Source: Bryobacterales bacterium
GTDB taxonomy: Bacteria > Acidobacteriota > Terriglobia > Bryobacterales > Bryobacteraceae
DNA: 49,237 bases
NCBI GenBank assembly: GCA_003163855.1
Contig: PLRJ01000060.1
Span: forward strand, 24,022 to 73,258
Reading direction: 5' to 3'
Both the position numbers and the translations under genes were made by a program. The notes beneath the pieces are model-generated. The model did not search any database. It was not told the origin of the DNA and saw only the letters and a program-made list of their open reading frames with translations. Numbering within the stretch: the first letter of the stretch is position 1; each line of letters begins with the position of its first letter. Below, piece after piece: positions 23,209 to 32,329 of the stretch.

Positions 23209-23718
23209 TTAGACTGGCGGGGCGGCGCACCAGTCGAACAGCAGTTGCCATTCGGCCATCTGAATGTCGATAGCCGCCTCTTCCGCTTTGCCGCTTTGCC
23301 TGTTGGCCTCTTCGCACCAATCGATAAAGAGGGCCGGATCCCACGACGTTTTTAAGCGCCACGGCTGGCCGTGCTGGCGGATGATCTCCGCTGCGCGTTC
23401 ATGCAGATCCGGAAAGATGGCATGGCGGCCGACGCGGCGAAACCAATATTGCGCGTTGAACGGGTCCGGCTCAAGGCGGTGAATGATGGCGTGCCAGTAG
23501 CTTCCCTCCGGCGAGTCGATGTCCTGCGCAATTTCGTGGCTCTGCGTCCAGCAGCCAAGCCGCAGCAGCGCGCCCGCTAGAGCCGCCTTACTGTTTCGCG
23601 CATCGGGGAAAAGATCGGCGGCGTTGGCGGAGCTTAGGCGGCAGGCATCTTTCGCCGGTTGGAACTGCGACTTCGTCAGAGGCACGCGTTCAGGAGCTGG
23701 GTTATTCAAAAGGTACAT
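23209..23718 (-). CDS. Conserved hypothetical protein downstream of dnaB
   Basis: From an ATG at 23718 (overlapping the dnaB end by 17 bp) this encodes 169 residues. The frame also extends 10 codons upstream, inside dnaB. It is rich in Trp, His and Ala, with GALLRLGCWTQSHEIAQDID, SYWHAIIHRLEPDPFNAQYW and WDPALFIDWCEEA, and looks alpha-helical. Similar proteins occur, as I recall, as uncharacterised genes in Acidobacteria; I cannot name a domain. It is co-directional with dnaB and translationally overlapped. Function unknown. Confidence 0.65.
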   Translation of the reverse strand: MYLLNNPAPERVPLTKSQFQPAKDACRLSSANAADLFPDARNSKAALAGALLRLGCWTQSHEIAQDIDSPEGSYWHAIIHRLEPDPFNAQYWFRRVGRHAIFPDLHERAAEIIRQHGQPWRLKTSWDPALFIDWCEEANRQSGKAEEAAIDIQMAEWQLLFDWCAAPPV

Positions 23719-25075
23719 CGTCACCGGTGTCCGCTGCCAGGTTTTCAAACTTGGTGAAGCGGTTGAGGAACGCCAGTTTTACGCGGCCAGTAGGGCCATT
23801 ACGCTGTTTGGCCAGAATGAACTCAGCCGTCCCCTTCAAGCTCTCTTTATCGGGGCGGTAAACTTCCTCGCGGAAGATGAAGCCCACCACATCGGCGTCC
23901 TGTTCGATGCTGCCCGATTCGCGCAGATCGCTCAACATAGGGCGATGGTCGCCGGGGCGCGTCTCCGGCGCCCGCGACAACTGCGACAGCACCAGGAACG
24001 GCACGCGCAGTTCCTTCGACATCAATTTGAAGCCGCGTGAGAGCGTGCTGATTTCCTGCTGGCGATTTTCAAAGCGGCCGCGGCCTTGCATCAGCTGCAG
24101 ATAATCGACAATCACCAGGCCAAGATCCTGTTCGGCCTGCAGGCGCCGCAGCTTGGAATGCACATCCATCAGATTGGTGCCGGCGCTGTCATCCAGGAAC
24201 AGCGGCGATTCGACAATCTTGTACAGAGCCTCCTGCAAAGCCGACCGTTCTTCATGGTTGAGATAACCGGCGCGAAAACGCTGTTGATCTACGCGCGCGG
24301 CGGCGCACACCATGCGAGTCAGCAACGACTCGTTCGACATTTCGAGCGAGAACACCGCCACCGCTTTCGGGCTCTTCAGATTGCTGGTGACGTGCTGGGC
24401 GATGTTCAGAGCGAACGCGGTTTTGCCCATTGCCGGACGCGCCGCCAGAATGATCAACTCACCTTCGCGGAAACCGCCGGTCATCTCATCGAGTTTCAGG
24501 AACCCGGTGCTGATGCCCTTAATGCGCTTGCTGGTATCGAGGAACGAATTGATGCCGCCCTCATACTCATTGATGATCTGGTTCGGCGTTACCAGCGCGT
24601 TGCGCGTGTTGGCGTCGCCCAGTTTCATGAAAGCGTCTTCGGCGGCGCCCAGAATTTCTTTCGGATTATCGTCCTGCGTCAGGCAGCGGTTGATGGTGTC
24701 CTGCGAGACGCTGATAATCCGCCGCAGCAGCGATTTTTCCTTAACGATGTTGACGTAGCTTTCCAGGTTGTGGAGATGCGGTAGTCCGTCATCGAGCGAA
24801 ACAAGGTAGCTGACGCCATCAACGGACTGCAACTGGCCATGTGTGTTGAGTTCGTTGGCAAGCGTGACGCGGTCGATCCTGTCGCCGCGCTCATGCAGAT
24901 CCAGCATGCGCAAAAAAATGCGCTTATGCTTTTCCAGGCTGAAGTCGTCGGCCGATATGTTGCCTGCCACCTGCAGAAACGACGTGTCATCGCTCATTAC
25001 GGCGCCGAGCACAAAGCGCTCCGCGTCCAGATTATCGGGCAAGGGCCTTTCGGTACTGACTTCAGTCATTCGCAT
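23702..25075 (-). CDS. dnaB: Replicative DNA helicase
   Basis: This 457-residue hexameric helicase unwinds DNA at replication forks. The N-terminal domain (about 10-115) starts PLPDNLDAERFVLGAVMSDD. The RecA-like domain has Walker A in ILAARPAMGKTAFALNIA, then VAVFSLEMSNESLLTRMVCA and Walker B in LVIVDYLQLMQG. It has the late motifs LSRAPETRPGDHRPMLSDLR, SGSIEQDADVVGFIFRE and LAKQRNGPTGRV. No intein is present. The 25076-25287 upstream region contains an inverted repeat but no gene. Confidence 0.96.
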   Translation of the reverse strand: MRMTEVSTERPLPDNLDAERFVLGAVMSDDTSFLQVAGNISADDFSLEKHKRIFLRMLDLHERGDRIDRVTLANELNTHGQLQSVDGVSYLVSLDDGLPHLHNLESYVNIVKEKSLLRRIISVSQDTINRCLTQDDNPKEILGAAEDAFMKLGDANTRNALVTPNQIINEYEGGINSFLDTSKRIKGISTGFLKLDEMTGGFREGELIILAARPAMGKTAFALNIAQHVTSNLKSPKAVAVFSLEMSNESLLTRMVCAAARVDQQRFRAGYLNHEERSALQEALYKIVESPLFLDDSAGTNLMDVHSKLRRLQAEQDLGLVIVDYLQLMQGRGRFENRQQEISTLSRGFKLMSKELRVPFLVLSQLSRAPETRPGDHRPMLSDLRESGSIEQDADVVGFIFREEVYRPDKESLKGTAEFILAKQRNGPTGRVKLAFLNRFTKFENLAADTGDDVPFE

Positions 25076-25162: not shown

Positions 25163-25209
25163 GAAATGCTTACGAGTCCGCGTTTACGCGTGTTTGCGTC
25201 GAGCATTTC
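25163..25209. repeat. Inverted repeat between dnaB and the his operon
   Basis: GAAATGCT (25163-25170) and AGCATTTC (25202-25209) are perfect complements, 31 nt apart. Between them is a small CGCG-TTTA-CGCG hairpin (25179-25190). It lies in the divergent intergenic region and could be an operator or a leader fold of the dnaB transcript. Confidence 0.4.
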
Positions 25210-25287
25210 CACAAGCTTTCCTCACGACATTTCTATTGTATTTTGTTTTAGCATGTTTCGGGGCAGCCCGGCGCGCGCATGACTGGC

Positions 25288-25296
25288 TGCTATACT
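25288..25296 (+). promoter_or_regulatory. Extended -10 promoter of the his operon
   Basis: TG-C-TATACT is an extended -10 element. With normal spacing, transcription would start at about 25303, at or one base before the leader-peptide GTG. The -35 position (about 25268-25273) shows no consensus, as can occur with extended -10 promoters. Confidence 0.45.
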
Positions 25297-25303
25297 TCGG
25301 TCA

Positions 25304-25354
25304 GTGATTACTCACGCACATCGCCATCATCTCCACCATCGCTCGATGGCTTAG
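25304..25354 (+). CDS. hisL: Histidine operon leader peptide
   Basis: A 16-codon frame, GTG start to TAG, reads MITHAHRHHLHHRSMA: six of sixteen residues are His, four of them in two adjacent pairs. It lies about 105 bp upstream of hisI and directly before an attenuator-like set of stems. Ribosome stalling at these codons when charged His-tRNA is scarce would control the downstream hairpins. No Shine-Dalgarno precedes the GTG, and the predicted transcript start is at or next to it, so initiation may be leaderless. This short frame is not found by length-based gene calling. Confidence 0.8.
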   Translation: MITHAHRHHLHHRSMA

Positions 25355-25426
25355 GCGGCGAATCTGCGTTCCCCACTTTAATCAAAAAGATTTGCAGACG
25401 CGCCCGCCGCTTGAGGTGGGCTTTTT
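25321..25426 (+). promoter_or_regulatory. His operon transcription attenuator (mutually exclusive stems)
   Basis: Three competing pairings are visible. Segment 1 TCGCC (25321-25325, in the His codons) can pair with segment 2 GGCGA (25357-25361); GCCATC (25323-25328) with GATGGC (25345-25350) is an alternative early stem. Segment 2 AGGCGGCG (25353-25360) can instead pair over 8 bp with CGCCGCTT (25405-25412, one G-T). That pairing destroys the terminator stem GCCCGCC/GGTGGGC (25402-25421). A ribosome stalled at the His codons would mask segment 1, free segment 2 and allow read-through. The geometry matches classical his/trp attenuators. Confidence 0.75.
25402..25426 (+). terminator. Attenuator terminator hairpin
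   Basis: GCCCGCC (25402-25408) pairs with GGTGGGC (25415-25421) over 7 bp with one G-T, loop GCTTGA, followed by TTTTT (25422-25426). It lies 36 bp before hisI, so it can only be a conditional terminator of the operon. Confidence 0.8.
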
Positions 25427-25461
25427 CGTTAGGAATCAACATAAGGGTGAAAGACTGGTCA

Positions 25462-25848
25462 ATGAGCGAAATACTGGATTTTGGCAAGCAGGATGGACTG
25501 ATTGCCGCCATTGTGCAGGATGCGAATACGCGGCGGGTCCTGATGCTCGGCTATATGAATCGTGAAGCGTTTCAGAAGACGCTAGCCAGTGGCAACGTTA
25601 CCTTTTTCAGCCGATCGCGGCAGAAGCTTTGGACCAAAGGCGAAAGCTCAGGACACGTGCTGAAGCTGAAATCGATGGCGGTGGATTGCGATGGCGATGC
25701 TTTGCTGGTGCAGGCCGATCCGGTTGGGCCGGGCGTGTGTCACGCGGGTTACGAAAGCTGTTTTTATCGCACGCTGACAGATGGTGAGTGGGTGGAAACA
25801 GACGCCAAGGCTTACGACCCGGATGCCGTGTATGGAGCGAAGAAGTGA
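25462..25848 (+). CDS. hisI: Phosphoribosyl-AMP cyclohydrolase
   Basis: This 128-residue enzyme opens the purine ring of phosphoribosyl-AMP, the third step of histidine synthesis. Motifs: [50 protein letters not shown] (metal Asp/Cys) and [11 protein letters not shown] (metal cysteines). It is the monofunctional form: no HisE domain follows. The ATG at 25462 follows AAGGGTGA; a longer frame from 25279 runs through the attenuator and is not real. It is the first structural gene of the operon. Its stop overlaps hisG by 4 bp (GTGA). Confidence 0.95.
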
Positions 25849-26714
25849 AGCTGAAGCTAGGCATTCCCAAGGGCAGCCTGGAAAATGCCACCATCGATCT
25901 GTTTCGCCGCGCCGGATTCAACATCACCACCAGCAGCCGCAGTTATTATCCCGCCATAGACGACCCGGAAATTGAATGCATGCTGATTCGCGCGCAGGAG
26001 ATGGCGCGCTATGTAGAAGATGGCGTGCTGGATGCAGGGCTTACGGGCCTCGATTGGGTAGCCGAAAACGAGGCGCAGGTGGAATGCGTGGCCGATCTTG
26101 TCTATGCCAAGCAGAGTTTCGGCAAAGTGCGGTGGGTGCTGGCTGCGCCGGAAACGTCAGTGTTTCAAAAAGTGGAAGATCTGCAAGGCAAGATTATTGC
26201 GACCGAACTGGTGCGGACCACGGAGCGCTATCTGGCTTCGCGCGGCGTGAAGGCCAAGGTGGAATTCAGCTGGGGGGCGACGGAAGTGAAGCCGCCGGTG
26301 CTGGCCGACGCCATAGTGGAAGTGACGGAGACCGGATCGTCTCTGCGCGCCAATAAGCTGCGCATTCTGGAAACGATTCTAGAATCGAACACGCAGCTGA
26401 TCGCCAACGCTTCGTCTTGGAAGAACGATTGGAAACGGCGCAAGCTGGAAGACATCAAGATGCTGCTGGAAGGCGCCATCAACGCGCTGGGCAAAGTGGG
26501 CCTGATGCTGAACGTGCGCAAAGTGGATTTGAGTGGCGTGCTGGGCGTGTTGCCGGCTTTGAAGAATCCCACTGTTTCGCAGTTGAGCGATGGCGAATGG
26601 GTGGCGGTGAATACCATTCTGGAAGAATCCACAGTGCGCGTGATTATTCCGCGCTTGAAAGAAGCCGGCGCGCAAGGCATTGTTGAGTATCCGTTGAACA
26701 AGATTGTGATGTAG
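25845..26714 (+). CDS. hisG: ATP phosphoribosyltransferase, long form
   Basis: This enzyme catalyses the first committed step of histidine synthesis, joining ATP and PRPP. From the GTG at 25845 it has 289 residues: the catalytic domains begin [20 protein letters not shown] and include [13 protein letters not shown] and [15 protein letters not shown]. The C-terminal 75 residues ([20 protein letters not shown] to [11 protein letters not shown]) are the ACT-like HisG_C domain that senses histidine. It is thus the hexameric long form and needs no HisZ. Feedback inhibition by histidine is expected from the family. Confidence 0.96.
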
Positions 26715-26723
26715 GCGCAGACC

Positions 26724-27968
26724 GTGATCCGCATATTGACACATAACGAGGCAAAGGCCTTTGCGCCGGACCGCAGCACGGACGATTCGCACTATGAAGC
26801 GGTGGTGCGTCCTATTCTGGCGGCTGTGCGCAAGGATGGCGATGCAGCGCTGCTTGCTTATGCGCGCCAGTTCGATAATTTGGGCGATGCGCCGCTGCTG
26901 ATTCCGGCGAGCGAGCTTGCGGAAGCAGCAGAATCGTTGACGCCGAACGTGCGCGCCGCGATTGAGACCGCGATTGCCAATATTCGTCAGTTCGCCGAAG
27001 CGCAACTGCCGCGCGAACGCTTTGAAGAATTTTCGCCAGGCCGGAAGCTGGGTTGGATCGTTCGCCCGTTGAAGGCCGTCGGCTGCTATGTTCCCTCAGG
27101 ACGCTATCCGCTGCCTTCAACGTTACTGATGACCGCCGTGCTGGCGCAGACCGCGGGTGTCGCGCGCATCTGTGCCACGTCGCCCAAGCCATCGAAGGAA
27201 ATATTGGCCTGCGCGCACATCCTTGGCATTAGCGAAGTCTACCGTGTGGGTGGAGCCCAAGCCATCGCCGCTATGGCGTTCGGTACGGAGAGCATCGCCC
27301 GTGTCGATCGGATTGTCGGTCCGGGCAATGCCTATGTCGCGGTGGCGAAGAAGCTGCTGGCGGGCGAAGTAGGAATCGATTTCCTGGCCGGTCCGACTGA
27401 GATTCTGATTCTGGCCGCCGATGGCGATGCGCGCGTGATTGCGGCTGACATGCTGGCGCAGGCCGAGCACGACGTCAGCGCCAGCGCCATGCTGTTGACC
27501 ACTTCGCACCAATTGGCGCAGCAGGTTTCGATGGAACTTGAACGTCAGTTGGCGACTTTAACCACCGCCGCCGTTGCGCGCGAATCGATTGATAAAGAGA
27601 GCTGCATTCTGGTGTTCGATGACATGGATGCGGCTGTGGCCTGCGCCAACCGGCTGGCGCCGGAGCATCTGAGTCTGCATGATGCTTCTTTACTTCCGAA
27701 AATCACTAACGCGGGAACGGTGTTTCTGGGTCAGAATTCGCCAGAATCGGCGGGCGATTATGCCGCTGGGCCGAGCCATGTTCTTCCCACCGGCGGCGCT
27801 TCGCGGCTGCGCGGCGGCTTGTCCGCGGCTGACTTTGTGAAGCTGATTGCCATTCAGCAATTAACACCGGCGGCACTGGCGCAGTTGGCTCCGGCGATAA
27901 CTACGCTGGCGCGCACCGAGGGTCTGGAAGGGCACGCGCGCGCGGTAGAGGTTCGCAATGGCTGTTAG
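26724..27968 (+). CDS. hisD: Histidinol dehydrogenase
   Basis: This 414-residue zinc enzyme oxidises histidinol to histidine in two NAD-dependent steps. Motifs: GWIVRPLKAVGCYVPSGRYP, GGAQAIAAMAFGTESI, DFLAGPTEILILAADGDARV, and the catalytic/zinc segment DMLAQAEHDVSASAMLLTTS. Late motifs are NRLAPEHLSLHD and SAGDYAAGPSHVLPTGG with a zinc-binding His. The start is GTG, 9 bp after hisG. The 3' end overlaps hisC by 11 bp. Confidence 0.97.
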   Translation: MIRILTHNEAKAFAPDRSTDDSHYEAVVRPILAAVRKDGDAALLAYARQFDNLGDAPLLIPASELAEAAESLTPNVRAAIETAIANIRQFAEAQLPRERFEEFSPGRKLGWIVRPLKAVGCYVPSGRYPLPSTLLMTAVLAQTAGVARICATSPKPSKEILACAHILGISEVYRVGGAQAIAAMAFGTESIARVDRIVGPGNAYVAVAKKLLAGEVGIDFLAGPTEILILAADGDARVIAADMLAQAEHDVSASAMLLTTSHQLAQQVSMELERQLATLTTAAVARESIDKESCILVFDDMDAAVACANRLAPEHLSLHDASLLPKITNAGTVFLGQNSPESAGDYAAGPSHVLPTGGASRLRGGLSAADFVKLIAIQQLTPAALAQLAPAITTLARTEGLEGHARAVEVRNGC

Positions 27969-29019
27969 TACAAAACTCACTCCGCGGCAGGCCGTGCTGG
28001 ACATGGCGCCGTATCATCCACCCACCGGGGCGCGCCGCAGCAAGCTCCGATTGGATTTCAATGAGAATACGGTGGGTGCGCCGCCGCATGTTATTGATTT
28101 CATCCAACGCTATCTCACGGCGGCCGACCTCAGCATGTATCCGGAATATGATCATGCACTGGAAGATTTGTCGCGCCACTTCGGCTGCGCGCTGAATGAA
28201 CTGACTTTGACCAACGGCACTGATGAAGCCATTCATCTGCTGTTGAGCACGTTTGTGGATCATGACCAGGAAGTGCTGATTCTGAAGCCTTCCTATGCGA
28301 TGTACCGCTTTTATGCGCAGCTTGCCGGCGCCAAGGTGCGCGAACTTGATTATCGCCCCGGCACTTTGGCGTTTCCGCTTGATGAAGTGCTGGAAGGCTT
28401 GACGCCGGCCACTCGCGCTGTCATGATCAGCAATCCGAATAATCCAACGGGCACCGGGATCGACCTTCGCGGCATCGAAAAAATCCTGGAGAAAGCGCCG
28501 CATACCGCTGTCCTTATCGACGAAGCGTATTACGAATTTTGCGGCGTAACCGCCATGCCGCTGCTGTCGCGTTACGCGAATTTATTTGTCAGCAGGACCT
28601 TTTCCAAAACCTATGGCATGGCCGCGATGCGCTGCGGCTGTTTGTTTTCGCAGGCGACGAATATTGCTCATGTGCGCAAAGGGCAATCGCCGTACAGCGT
28701 GAATGCCGTGGCTGCTATGGCCGCTCGCATTGCGGTGCAGGATAAGAAGTTTGTAGAAGATTACGTGCTTGAGGTGCTGACCGCGCGTGAACTGCTGTAC
28801 ATCGGGCTGGAAAAGTTGAACATTCCTTACATCCGGAGCCAGGCGAATTTTGTGTTGTTTCAGGCCGGAGATCGCGCGATTGAAATTCGCGATGCGTTGC
28901 GTGAGCGCGGCATTCTGGTGCGCGACCGCAGTTATGAAATTGCCGGCTGCGTGCGAGTGACGGTGGGAACGCGCGACCAGATCCGGCAGTTTTTAGAGGA
29001 GTTGGAGAAGCTATGGTAG
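27958..29019 (+). CDS. hisC: Histidinol-phosphate aminotransferase
   Basis: This 353-residue PLP-dependent fold-I aminotransferase converts imidazole-acetol phosphate to histidinol phosphate. Motifs: LRLDFNENTVGAPP, TNGTDEAIHLLLSTF, ISNPNNPTGTGID (Asn and PLP contact), VLIDEAYYEFCG, and the PLP lysine in SRTFSKTYGMAAMRCG. The C-terminus has RGILVRDRSYEIAGCVRVTVG. It overlaps hisD by 11 bp and the HAD gene by 7 bp, so translation is probably coupled. Confidence 0.96.
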   Translation: MAVSTKLTPRQAVLDMAPYHPPTGARRSKLRLDFNENTVGAPPHVIDFIQRYLTAADLSMYPEYDHALEDLSRHFGCALNELTLTNGTDEAIHLLLSTFVDHDQEVLILKPSYAMYRFYAQLAGAKVRELDYRPGTLAFPLDEVLEGLTPATRAVMISNPNNPTGTGIDLRGIEKILEKAPHTAVLIDEAYYEFCGVTAMPLLSRYANLFVSRTFSKTYGMAAMRCGCLFSQATNIAHVRKGQSPYSVNAVAAMAARIAVQDKKFVEDYVLEVLTARELLYIGLEKLNIPYIRSQANFVLFQAGDRAIEIRDALRERGILVRDRSYEIAGCVRVTVGTRDQIRQFLEELEKLW

Positions 29020-29711
29020 CCGAACGAACTCCTGAAGTTCTGGTATTCGACATGGACGGAGTGCTGGTGGAAGTGGGCCAAAGTTATTGGGAGGCCATTC
29101 GCCAGACGGTGGCGCATTTCACCGGACATTTGGTCTCGCATGACACCATCCAGGATTTTAAGAACGCCGGCGGATGGAATAACGACTGGGTGCTTTCGCA
29201 CCGGCTGATTGCCGATCAGGGCAAGACGGTCGAGTATGCGGACGTGGTGGCGGAGTTTAATCGAATTTTTCTGGGTGAGAACAACGACGGGCTAATCCGC
29301 AACGAACAATGGATGCCGCAAAATGGCTTGTTGGAGCGGCTGGGCAAGCATTCCGCGCTTGCCATCTTCACCGGGCGCGCGAAATTTGAAGCGGATGCCA
29401 CGCTGGACAAGTATGCGCCAGATATCAAATTTGAACCCATCATTACCGATGAATCGGTGGCGAATCCAAAGCCCGCTCCCGAAGGCTTGGAAATGATAAA
29501 GCAGCATTACCCCGGCAAGCACATCTGGTACTTGGGCGACACGGTGGATGACGCCCGCAGTGCGAAAGCGGCCGGCGTGCCGTTCATCGGCGTATCGATG
29601 CCGCACAACAATCGACATCGTGAAATCAGCGAGATCTTGCACCGCCTGGGCGCTTTTGCTGTGATTCAGGACATAAACGAACTGGAAGAATTATGCGCGA
29701 AGCCACGGTAG
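29013..29711 (+). CDS. HAD-superfamily phosphatase, candidate histidinol-phosphatase
   Basis: This 232-residue HAD subfamily IA hydrolase carries all four motifs: I in [13 protein letters not shown] in [13 protein letters not shown] Lys in [13 protein letters not shown], and IV in [20 protein letters not shown]. It is embedded in the his operon between hisC and hisB with overlaps of 7 and 19 bp. Neither a HisB-N domain nor a PHP- or IMP-type histidinol phosphatase occurs in the operon, and this position and fold suit that missing step. As I recall, relatives occur beside or fused to IGP dehydratase in other lineages. The sequence alone does not prove the substrate. Confidence 0.8.
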
Positions 29712-30280
29712 AGCGAATCACCAAAGAAACGCAGATCAAAGGCGAGTTGCGTATTGAAGGAACCGGGATTTACGAAGTTTCCACCGGCATTCGCTTTCTG
29801 GATCACATGCTTGAGCTTTTCACCAAGCATGGCGCTTTCGACCTGAAACTCAACGCCAAGGGTGATTTGGACGTGGACCAGCATCACACGGTGGAAGACA
29901 CCGGCATTGTCCTGGGCGATCTGTTCGCGAAGGCGCTGGGCGACAGGCGCGGCATTAATCGCGCGGGTTATTTTGTGCAGACCATGGATGAATCGCTGGC
30001 GGTTGTCGCCGTGGATCTTGGCGGGCGGCCCGCGCTGGTGTACGACCAGCAAGTTACCGTCACGCATGTGGGCGATTTGCAGACCGAACTGTTGGAAGAC
30101 TTCTTCGACGGCTTTGCCAACCACGCCGGGGCGAATTTTCACGCCAAAATCAAGTACGGCCGTTCGAACCACCACAAGATTGAAGCCATCTTCAAATGTT
30201 TCGGCCGCGCCATGAGTTATGCCTGCTCTACTAACGAACGCTTGAAAGACCAGCTTCCGTCAACCAAGGGTTTGTTGTGA
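29693..30280 (+). CDS. hisB: Imidazoleglycerol-phosphate dehydratase
   Basis: This 195-residue manganese enzyme dehydrates imidazole glycerol phosphate. Both His-rich metal motifs are present: [17 protein letters not shown] with [13 protein letters not shown], and [17 protein letters not shown] with [18 protein letters not shown]. It is monofunctional, lacking the N-terminal HAD domain of enterobacterial HisB; the separate HAD gene just upstream may replace it. It starts inside the HAD gene (19-bp overlap) and ends with a GTGA overlap with hisH. Confidence 0.97.
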
Positions 30281-30870
30281 CCACGATTGTCGATTACGGC
30301 GCCGGCAATATTCGGTCGGTGCGCAACACGCTGGAAGAGATCGGTGCTCCGTATGAGGTGACCAACGATGCGGCCGTGGTATCGAAAGCTACCAAAGTGA
30401 TGTTGCCTGGAGTTGGCCATTTCGGGCAGATGCTGCATGCCATCGACAACCTGGGTTTGCGCGCGCCGCTGCTTGATCGTATTCGCGCTGGTGTGCCGTT
30501 TCTTGGCATCTGCGTAGGTCTGCAGTGTTTGTTCGAAGAGAGCGAGGAGGCGCCGGGGGTGGCTGGACTTGGCGTTTTTCCTGGCGTGGTGCAGCGCTTT
30601 GTTGGCGATGCGCGCATTCCGCACATGGGTTGGAATTCGCTTGACCGTACCAAGCCATCCAAACTTCTGGCGGGGTTGGACGAATCGGCGTACACGTATT
30701 TTGCGCACAGTTACTACGCGCCAGTGAATATGTCGACCGCCGCAACGTGCACTTACATTCATCCCTACTCGGCGGTGATTGAAGAAGGAAATGTACACGC
30801 TGTGCAGTTTCATCCGGAGAAGTCGGGGCCGGTGGGCTTGCGCGTAGTCGGCAATTTCGTGCAATTGTAA
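30277..30870 (+). CDS. hisH: Imidazole glycerol phosphate synthase, glutaminase subunit
   Basis: This 197-residue class-I glutamine amidotransferase supplies ammonia to HisF. The nucleophile Cys lies in [20 protein letters not shown], and the His/Glu of the triad in [19 protein letters not shown]. The start [18 protein letters not shown] is typical. Begins with GTG overlapping the hisB stop; ends with a one-base overlap (TAATG) with hisF, its partner. Confidence 0.97.
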
Positions 30871-31634
30871 TGCTGGCGAAACGAATCATCCCCTGCCTTG
30901 ATGTCACCGCCGGACGGGTGGTGAAAGGCATCAATTTCGTTGCTTTGCGCGACGCGGGCGATCCGGTTGAACTGGCCGAGCGCTACAACGACCAGGGCGC
31001 CGATGAACTGGTGTTCCTGGACATCACCGCATCGAGCGATGCGCGCGAGATTATGGTGGACCTGGTGGCGCGAACGGCGCGCAAAGTTTTTATTCCGCTG
31101 ACGGTAGGCGGAGGCATTCGTTCGGTCGTCGACGCGCGCAAAATTATTCTGGCGGGTGCGGATAAAGTCAGCGTCAACACCGCCGCCGTTCATCGGCCTG
31201 AACTGATTCGGGAGCTTAGCCTGGAATTTGGCGCGCAGGCGGTGGTGCTGGCGATTGATGCGCGGCGCGCGGCGCCAGGCAGTTGGAACGTTTATACAAA
31301 AGGCGGACGCCAGGATGAGGGCATCGATGCGGTAGGCTGGGCGCGCCGCGGCGAAGAATTGGGCGCCGGAGAAATTCTGCTCACATCTATGGACACCGAT
31401 GGTGTGCAGAGCGGTTTTGATTGTGCGCTAACGCGAGCGGTGGTAGAAGCTACCACTGTCCCTGTTATTGCTTCAGGCGGCGCGGGAACGCTGGAAGATT
31501 TTGCCGAAGTGTTCGTCAGCGGGCGCGCCGACGCCGCTCTGGCCGCCTCTGTCTTTCATTATGGTAAGTACACGGTTGCCGAGTTGAAGCATCATCTTGC
31601 ATCCGTGAATGTCCCGGTCAGACCTATTGCATGA
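30870..31634 (+). CDS. hisF: Imidazole glycerol phosphate synthase, cyclase subunit
   Basis: This 254-residue TIM-barrel enzyme makes imidazole glycerol phosphate and AICAR from PRFAR and ammonia. Catalytic Asp residues are in [19 protein letters not shown] and [14 protein letters not shown]. Phosphate-binding loops [12 protein letters not shown] and [17 protein letters not shown] are intact. It overlaps hisA by 4 bp (ATGA). Confidence 0.97.
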
Positions 31635-32329
31635 TTATTCCCTGTATTGACCTTATGGACGGCAAAGTGGTCCAACTAGTGCAAGGCCGCACCAAAGTTC
31701 TGGAAGGCAAATCGCCCGATGAAATGCTGGATGAGTTCGCTGGCTTTCCGCAGATTCAGGTGATTGACCTGGATGCGGCTATGGGACGCGGTTCCAACGG
31801 CGACATGGTTGAGTATCTGGCGCGCCGGGCAGCCATCCGCGCAGGCGGCGGCGTACGCAGCGTGGAACGCGCGCAACAACTGATCGATCAAGGCGCATGC
31901 CGGGTTATTGTCGGCACAGCCGCCTTTGGCACGGATGGGCCGAATACCGAGTTTCTTAGCGAATTGAGCAAAGAGATTGGCCCTGAACACATCACGCTCG
32001 CGCTTGACAGCAAGCATGGGCACATTGTGGTGAAAGGCTGGCAGGAAGCAACCGAGTGGACCGCTATCGACATGATCAACCGGTTGGAGCCGTTTTGCTC
32101 GGGCTTCCTATGCACTTATGTGGACAAAGAAGGCATGATGCAGGGTACGGACCTGGATTGGTTTGCCAGTTTGCGCGCCGCCACGCCGCATGAGATTATC
32201 GCGGCCGGCGGCATAACCACGATGGAAGACATCAAGGCTCTTACTGCCATGCGTATTCACTGTGCGGTGGGCATGGCCATTTATACTGGCCGGCTGGCGC
32301 TGGCGGATTTGCGCCCGCTTAATGGATAA
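31631..32329 (+). CDS. hisA: ProFAR isomerase (HisA)
   Basis: This 232-residue TIM-barrel isomerase is related to HisF. The N-terminal [18 protein letters not shown] carries the catalytic Asp. Other segments are [53 protein letters not shown] (second catalytic Asp) and [16 protein letters not shown]. It is the final gene of the operon; the product feeds HisF. The loop containing [12 protein letters not shown] is usual for HisA. No clear terminator follows; the next gene starts 51 bp downstream. Confidence 0.93.

Follow-up and report, generated by a model that had tools for sequence, protein, structure and literature searches.

A predicted, probably leaderless histidine attenuator upstream of hisI in a Bryobacterales genome and in related Terriglobia

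Introduction

Histidine attenuators have been described in gamma-proteobacteria and in some Firmicutes (accessible text of PMC9413887 and PMC2965389). In gamma-proteobacteria, the attenuator modelled as RF00514 combines a short ORF with tandem His codons and alternative antiterminator and terminator structures upstream of the his operon (PMC9413887, accessible text), and the first gene of this operon is hisG (PMC4833913, accessible text). The His-leaders of Firmicutes, which precede hisZ or hisS in bacilli and also occur in Erysipelotrichales and other groups, carry runs of His codons before a terminator/antiterminator; the accessible parts of PMC2965389 and PMC9413887 make no mention of leaderless leaders for Firmicutes. 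Leaders that begin with the transcript are known for other amino acids. The trpL ORF of Sinorhizobium meliloti starts at the 5' end of its mRNA and is translated, according to the accessible text of PMC10117765. In Streptomyces lividans, leuL1, leuL2, metL and thrL are transcribed leaderless before amino-acid genes, and leuL1, metL and thrL are without a clear Rho-independent terminator (PMC8079986, accessible text).

For Acidobacteria, the accessible text of PMC4833913 mentions the phylum just for the distance between leader and structural gene, and the word Acidobacteria is absent from the main text of PMC3766115. The sequence-only reading of the present locus knew of no earlier acidobacterial description, and we found none among the literature matches listed, which cover subscription papers thinly; the 2010 survey by Lopatovskaya et al. 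may list one.

Here, we analysed a stretch of 49,237 nucleotides from a Bryobacterales bacterium, an acidobacterium of soil (contig PLRJ01000060.1, positions 24,022 to 73,258), referred to as the window, together with related genomes. The locus shares with the gamma-proteobacterial system its position upstream of the his operon, the tandem His codons in a short ORF and the choice between antiterminator and terminator structures, and with the Firmicutes leaders the run of His codons before these structures. It differs from the former by its first gene (hisI rather than hisG), by the absence of an Rfam match, by a leader that is probably leaderless and by its phylum, and from the latter by phylum and genes. 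A leaderless start like that of S. meliloti trpL is predicted here, whereas it was measured there, in an alphaproteobacterium and for tryptophan; the S. lividans leaders belong to Actinobacteria and serve other amino acids.

Results

A His-rich leader ORF and an intrinsic terminator precede the his operon

The operon starts with hisI, encoding phosphoribosyl-AMP cyclohydrolase (25462..25848, + strand; NCBIfam PRK00051, 150.2 bits for a cut-off of 126). It continues on the same strand with hisG, hisD, hisC, a gene for a HAD-type hydrolase (29013-29711), hisB, hisH, hisF and hisA (25845..32329). The attenuator thus adjoins genes making the same amino acid as the one encoded in its leader, as named by NCBIfam: hisG, hisD, hisC, hisB, hisH and hisF scored above their family cut-offs, whereas hisA reached 182 bits for a cut-off of 228.95 and the HAD protein 125 bits for a cut-off of 140.2. 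The latter, located between hisC and hisB, may supply the histidinol-phosphatase step. The gene upstream of the attenuator, dnaB (23702-25075), is on the opposite strand.

The leader ORF, hisL (25304..25354, + strand), starts with GTG at 25304, reads VITHAHRHHLHHRSMA and stops with TAG at 25352-25354. Its codons are GTG ATT ACT CAC GCA CAT CGC CAT CAT CTC CAC CAT CGC TCG ATG GCT TAG, so that the window sequence bears out the leader of 16 codons with six His codons that had been proposed. An intrinsic terminator was predicted at 25402..25426 on the same strand. It is made of a 7-bp stem (25402-25408 with 25415-25421) closed by a loop at 25409-25414, the stem-loop spanning 25402-25421, and is followed by T5 at 25422-25426. 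The sequence-only reading had this terminator 36 bp before hisI; the terminator stands, and the distance from T5 to the hisI ATG at 25462 is 35 nt. Overall, the elements lie at the positions that were originally given for them or within 1-2 bases of these.

A second frame, opening at an ATG at 25279, runs across the whole attenuator into hisI (25279-25461). An automatic gene caller could therefore annotate hisI too long, extending it through the attenuator. When the protein is read from 25462, HisI family matches start at its residues 4-9.

The window's leader RNA is predicted to form mutually exclusive structures

The predicted fold of the leader RNA had an energy of -38.9 kcal/mol (z -2.35), and 3 of 200 shuffled sequences folded equally well. 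The antiterminator that had been proposed, an 8-bp pairing of 25353-25360 with 25405-25412, can form; the predicted folds favour another register. In this register, strand 2 (GGCGGCG, 25354..25360, + strand), which starts inside the leader stop codon, pairs as the antiterminator 5' strand with strand 3 (25401..25408, + strand), leaving one bulge at 25403. An inner helix joins 25363..25368 (TCTGCG) to 25393..25398 (TGCAGA), both on the + strand. Positions 25402-25408 of strand 3 double as the 5' arm of the terminator. A candidate strand 1 (TCGCC, 25321..25325, + strand) could pair with 25357-25361 as suggested initially, although this pairing of just 5 bp is weak and missing from the predicted fold.

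The leader is conserved upstream of hisI in related genomes

Of 150 genomes related to that of the window, 144 had a HisI match. We examined 143 loci, leaving out one (G016) whose contig begins inside hisI. We scored as leaders those short ORFs that held 3 or more His in a stretch of 9 residues and ended 20-320 nt before the hisI match. Such an ORF was found in 111 of the 143 loci, all from the same class, Terriglobia, or 111 of 129 when the 14 loci of families f9, f10 and f5, which were scanned separately, are set aside. The conservation of a His-rich frame, which had been put forward as a check, was thus found. By kinship, leaders were present in 13/15 loci of the genus, 67/70 of the family, 8/20 of the order and 23/38 of the class. 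Within 320 nt upstream of hisI, a threshold of 3 His in 9 residues gave frames in 111/129 loci on the + strand and in 5/129 on the reverse strand; raising the threshold to 4 His gave 102/129 and 0/129. Leader peptides were 14-28 residues long, the medians being 22 residues and 6 His. A terminator was predicted after all 111 leaders, that of the window included.

No leader was found in 32 of the 143 loci, and these losses were clustered: they comprise the loci of f9 (6/6), f10 (3/3), f5 (6/6) and genus g76 (11/11), and 6 others. In the 14 genomes of f9, f10 and f5, neither the region before hisI nor the 1500 nt preceding hisG held a leader (0/14). Upstream of hisG, the other 18 leader-less genomes had no His-rich leader with a terminator, and two chance His-rich frames without one. 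In a g76 genome assembled as one contig (G093), hisG lies about 1.8 Mb away from hisI. At two loci (L010 in G009 and L028 in G017), the -10 element and the terminator upstream of hisI are kept and the leader ORF between them is gone, by either natural deletion or assembly collapse.

Leader start codons lie just downstream of -10 elements

An extended -10 element, TGCTATACT, is found at 25288..25296 on the + strand, as judged from the sequence and from -10 placement in relatives. It consists of TATACT (25291-25296) with TG before it, and 7 nt separate its end from the GTG. The usual spacing between a -10 element and +1 puts the transcription start at the leader start codon. The start is accordingly predicted at 25303..25304 on the + strand, at or 1 nt before this codon. 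The best -35 for the window's leader matches 2 of 6 positions, and a plain consensus promoter scan of the window listed no promoter at this site. A transcription start downstream of 25354, which the sequence-only reading had named as evidence against itself, is not predicted: the best -10 ends at 25296, and the start is expected near 25303-25304.

When the position of the start codon was ignored, a -10 could be assigned in 94 of the 111 leaders; the other 17 had no independently placed -10 at the required score. An in-frame start codon lay 5-12 nt past the independently placed -10 in 90 of the 94, and an out-of-frame one in 1. When start choice favoured a nearby -10, 105/111 leaders had a -10 matching at least 4 of 6 positions, mostly 8-9 nt before the start. 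This preference inflates the count of 105, and the test was repeated without it. Taking the nearest ATG as the start, 62/99 leaders had a -10 at 6-10 nt, against 1/391 control ATGs; the nearest ATG, GTG or TTG gave 57/103. With the longest ORF, just 26/111 leaders had a -10 that matched 5 or more of 6 positions and lay 6-10 nt before the start. The extended form, with TG just before the -10, was present in 68 of the 105 leaders having a -10. Shine-Dalgarno-like motifs preceded 8/111 leaders, as compared with 32/109 hisI starts. Since an in-frame start follows the -10 by 5-12 nt in 90/94 cases, translation of the leader probably takes place on a leaderless mRNA, a prediction that rests on the -10 spacing.

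Predicted pairing of the leader 3' end with the terminator arm is species-matched overall

The best duplexes between leader and terminator 5' arm were more stable than dinucleotide shuffles at p<=0.05 in 47/111 loci (median z -1.45). Single-locus shuffle tests of this kind were not strong enough to support the argument, and we therefore also swapped arms between species and compared state-dependent folds with those of shuffled sequences. In the swap test, the pairing energy was -19.97 kcal/mol when leaders kept their own arm and -18.03 (sd 0.24) after permutation, and none of 10,000 permutations reached the real value. Permuting by kinship gave 0 (family), 0 (class), 420 (order) and 897 (genus) per 10,000, counts in which relatedness is still present. 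Pairing of the leader 3' end with the terminator 5' arm is therefore species-matched, and weakly so within genus and order.

Two alignments were analysed, A2 with 67 family leaders and the window (68 rows) and A1 with 23 class rows; 12 other genus leaders and 8 order leaders were outside both. In A2, 76.5% of the cells were paired for strands 2:3, against 35-46% when the strands were slid, and 1/500 shuffles was as high. For strands 1:2 the values were 65.1% and 37-48%, with 0/500 shuffles as high. The clearest two-sided change was found in this helix, at column pair 23:74, with UA in 18 rows and CG in 12. In A1, strands 2:3 were paired at 74.0%, against 34-45% when slid, with 30/500 shuffles reaching this percentage and 43/500 the covariation; strands 3:4 were paired at 98.5%. 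Counts of double-change pairs were not above those of shuffles (312/500 for 1:2 in A2, 216/500 for 2:3 in A2 and 258/500 for 2:3 in A1). The covariation that had been proposed as a check on the stems was seen in part: the helices are kept beyond slid controls with some two-sided changes, whereas double changes are no more frequent than in shuffles. The protector helix 1:2, through which the terminator could form in an untranslated leader, is supported in the family alignment and absent from the predicted fold of the window.

The strand-2 7-mer GNCGGGC was found near the end of 39 of the 111 leaders. It occupied frame 1 in 25 leaders, frame 2 in 5 and frame 0 in 4, and in the other 5 it lay at the stop codon or beyond it; a wider set of strand-2 variants was present in 89/111. 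This spread over frames points to selection on the motif as RNA and not as peptide.

Predicted folds depend on the position of the ribosome

The fold test was carried out on 109 leaders, two of the 111 being left out because they are without the CCCG core, and assumed that a ribosome reaches about 13 nt past its A site. Shuffles were made of the upstream sequence. With a ribosome stalled at the second His codon of the run, before strand 4 was made, strand 3 was sequestered in 99/109 leaders; shuffles gave 54.5 (sd 4.5), with 62 as the largest of 20 runs. With the ribosome at the stop codon, strand 3 was sequestered at the same stage in 8/109 (shuffles 15.8), and without a ribosome in 69/109 (shuffles 53). 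The contrast between 8/109 at the stop and 99/109 at the His codons agrees with the earlier proposal that a ribosome at the stop codon blocks the antiterminator and favours termination. In these computed folds, the antiterminator and the terminator exclude each other, and the ribosome at the stop codon covers the antiterminator.

In the window, whichever of the six His codons held the stalled ribosome, the antiterminator was predicted to form before strand 4; with the ribosome at the stop, the terminator was predicted. Once the full sequence was folded, the terminator core was present in 107/109 leaders with the ribosome at the stop, in 76/109 when stalled and in 96/109 when free. Since most full folds of stalled leaders, the window included, still hold the terminator core at equilibrium, the switch needs the antiterminator to form first and to persist. 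The full free fold of the window keeps the antiterminator and does not contain the terminator. On this modelled fold, an untranslated window leader may read through by default.

Specificity of the model and occurrence outside the class

Rfam models for the his leader (RF00514) and the T-box (RF00230) did not match the window at gathering score, and a search of 25200-25500 at E<=10 found neither of them. A histidine T-box and membership of RF00514 were rejected on this lack of matches. A covariance model built from A2 matched in 87/110 genomes at E<=0.01, many of which supplied model rows. At E<=1e-5, it had one match away from hisI (in G020), without a His-rich ORF. Eight matches away from hisI were checked: seven were without a His-rich leader and one was at hisS (G129). 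At the latter locus (L362, contig C1), a short ORF containing two His lies, together with a terminator, before hisS (TIGR00442, 439.6 bits).

Outside the class, 63 genomes had a hisG match, of which 60 were taken and 58 scanned, two stretches being shorter than 300 nt. Upstream of hisG, 15/58 genomes had a His-rich ORF, with 4 or more His in 9 residues, and after it a hairpin with a T-run; the reverse strand gave 0/58. In some further genomes, a His-rich ORF was present and the terminator test was not passed. The leader is thus wider than Terriglobia and not universal. Four of the 15 genomes, from family f27, have two His-rich ORFs in series upstream of hisG (L272 in G164, L275 in G177, L276 in G189 and L280 in G212), each with its own terminator, forming tandem attenuators.

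Leaders for other amino acids were also sought. Upstream of trpE-family matches at 24 loci of relatives, nothing convincing was found as a Trp leader; the genus matches were below the family cut-off and are maybe not true trpE. A short Val/Leu-rich ORF and a terminator precede ilvB at L319 (G000, contig C148) and at other ilvB loci among L311-L332. This leader occurs in the genome of the window and in several relatives with, as judged by eye, an apparently normal 5' UTR. From its sequence, the element upstream of ilvB is likely a branched-chain attenuator.

Discussion

The ORF, the terminator, the promoter-to-start spacing, the conservation, the matched pairing and the state-dependent folds described above were all computed, and we regard it as very probable that they reflect a ribosome-mediated transcription attenuator of the his operon with a leaderless start. 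From them we infer the start site, translation, termination and histidine response of the attenuator. The extended -10 would start transcription at the leader start codon or one base before it, and ribosomes would load on the leaderless mRNA. When charged His-tRNA is ample, the ribosome would reach the stop codon and cover strand 2 (25354-25360). Strand 3 would then pair with strand 4, the terminator at 25402-25426 would form, and a transcript of about 123 nt would end before hisI. When charged His-tRNA is scarce, the ribosome would stall on the His codons and strand 2 would pair with strand 3 as soon as the latter is made; this antiterminator would forestall the terminator, and the his genes would be transcribed. 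In relatives, strand 1, ahead of the His run, could pair with strand 2.

The attenuator could be real and its leader not leaderless, with transcription starting further upstream and TATACT being coincidental or secondary. The -35 of the window with 2 of 6 matches would fit such an arrangement, as would the 17/111 leaders without an independent -10 of the required score, the biased start choice in one of the counts, the low yield of the longest-ORF rule (26/111) and the f27 leader, which appears by eye to have a short 5' UTR. Against it, the start codon follows an independently placed -10 in frame in 90/94 leaders and out of frame in 1/94, the nearest-ATG and nearest-ATG/GTG/TTG rules give 62/99 and 57/103 where control ATGs give 1/391, TG precedes the -10 in 68/105 leaders, and an SD-like motif is found in just 8/111. 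We therefore consider an upstream start unlikely. That the whole structure is spurious, the stem-loop and U-run being the terminator of the upstream gene and the His-rich frame a product of chance, draws on the fact that such hairpins are common and that the covariance model matches ordinary-looking gene ends at E values from 8e-6 upward. Nevertheless, dnaB (23702-25075) is encoded on the other strand, so that no dnaB transcript ends here, and His-rich frames are found in 111/143 loci, as opposed to 5/129 on the reverse strand. On this conservation and on the orientation of dnaB we rejected this explanation, which we hold to be extremely improbable.

The terminated leaderless RNA or its peptide might in addition act in trans, as has been reported for rnTrpL, the trp attenuator RNA of S. 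meliloti, and for the peptide peTrpL. The product expected here resembles rnTrpL in being a small leaderless mRNA (PMC10117765, accessible text), whereas the spread of GNCGGGC over frames suggests that the RNA and not the peptide is under selection; we find this extension quite improbable. The cis-acting attenuator remains our preferred reading. Its mechanism is classical, and for other amino acids leaders of the leaderless kind have been described before. We read it as a conserved histidine sensor of known general type, which would work like the classical his attenuator and falls outside RF00514.

Terriglobia, and perhaps early Acidobacteriota, might control histidine synthesis through a his attenuator with a leaderless leader, in which initiation at the 5' end is selected and the antiterminator strand lies in the last codons or the stop, and some other acidobacterial lineages might carry a doubled sensor in series; the arguments for and against this broader picture seem to us evenly balanced. 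The 111 leaders are natural variants of one switch, in which the position of the stop, the frame and the strands vary and the pairing is kept, and they are useful for testing models of attenuation. If leaderless initiation proves true, this family would provide a compact case for how leaderless mRNAs couple to transcription.
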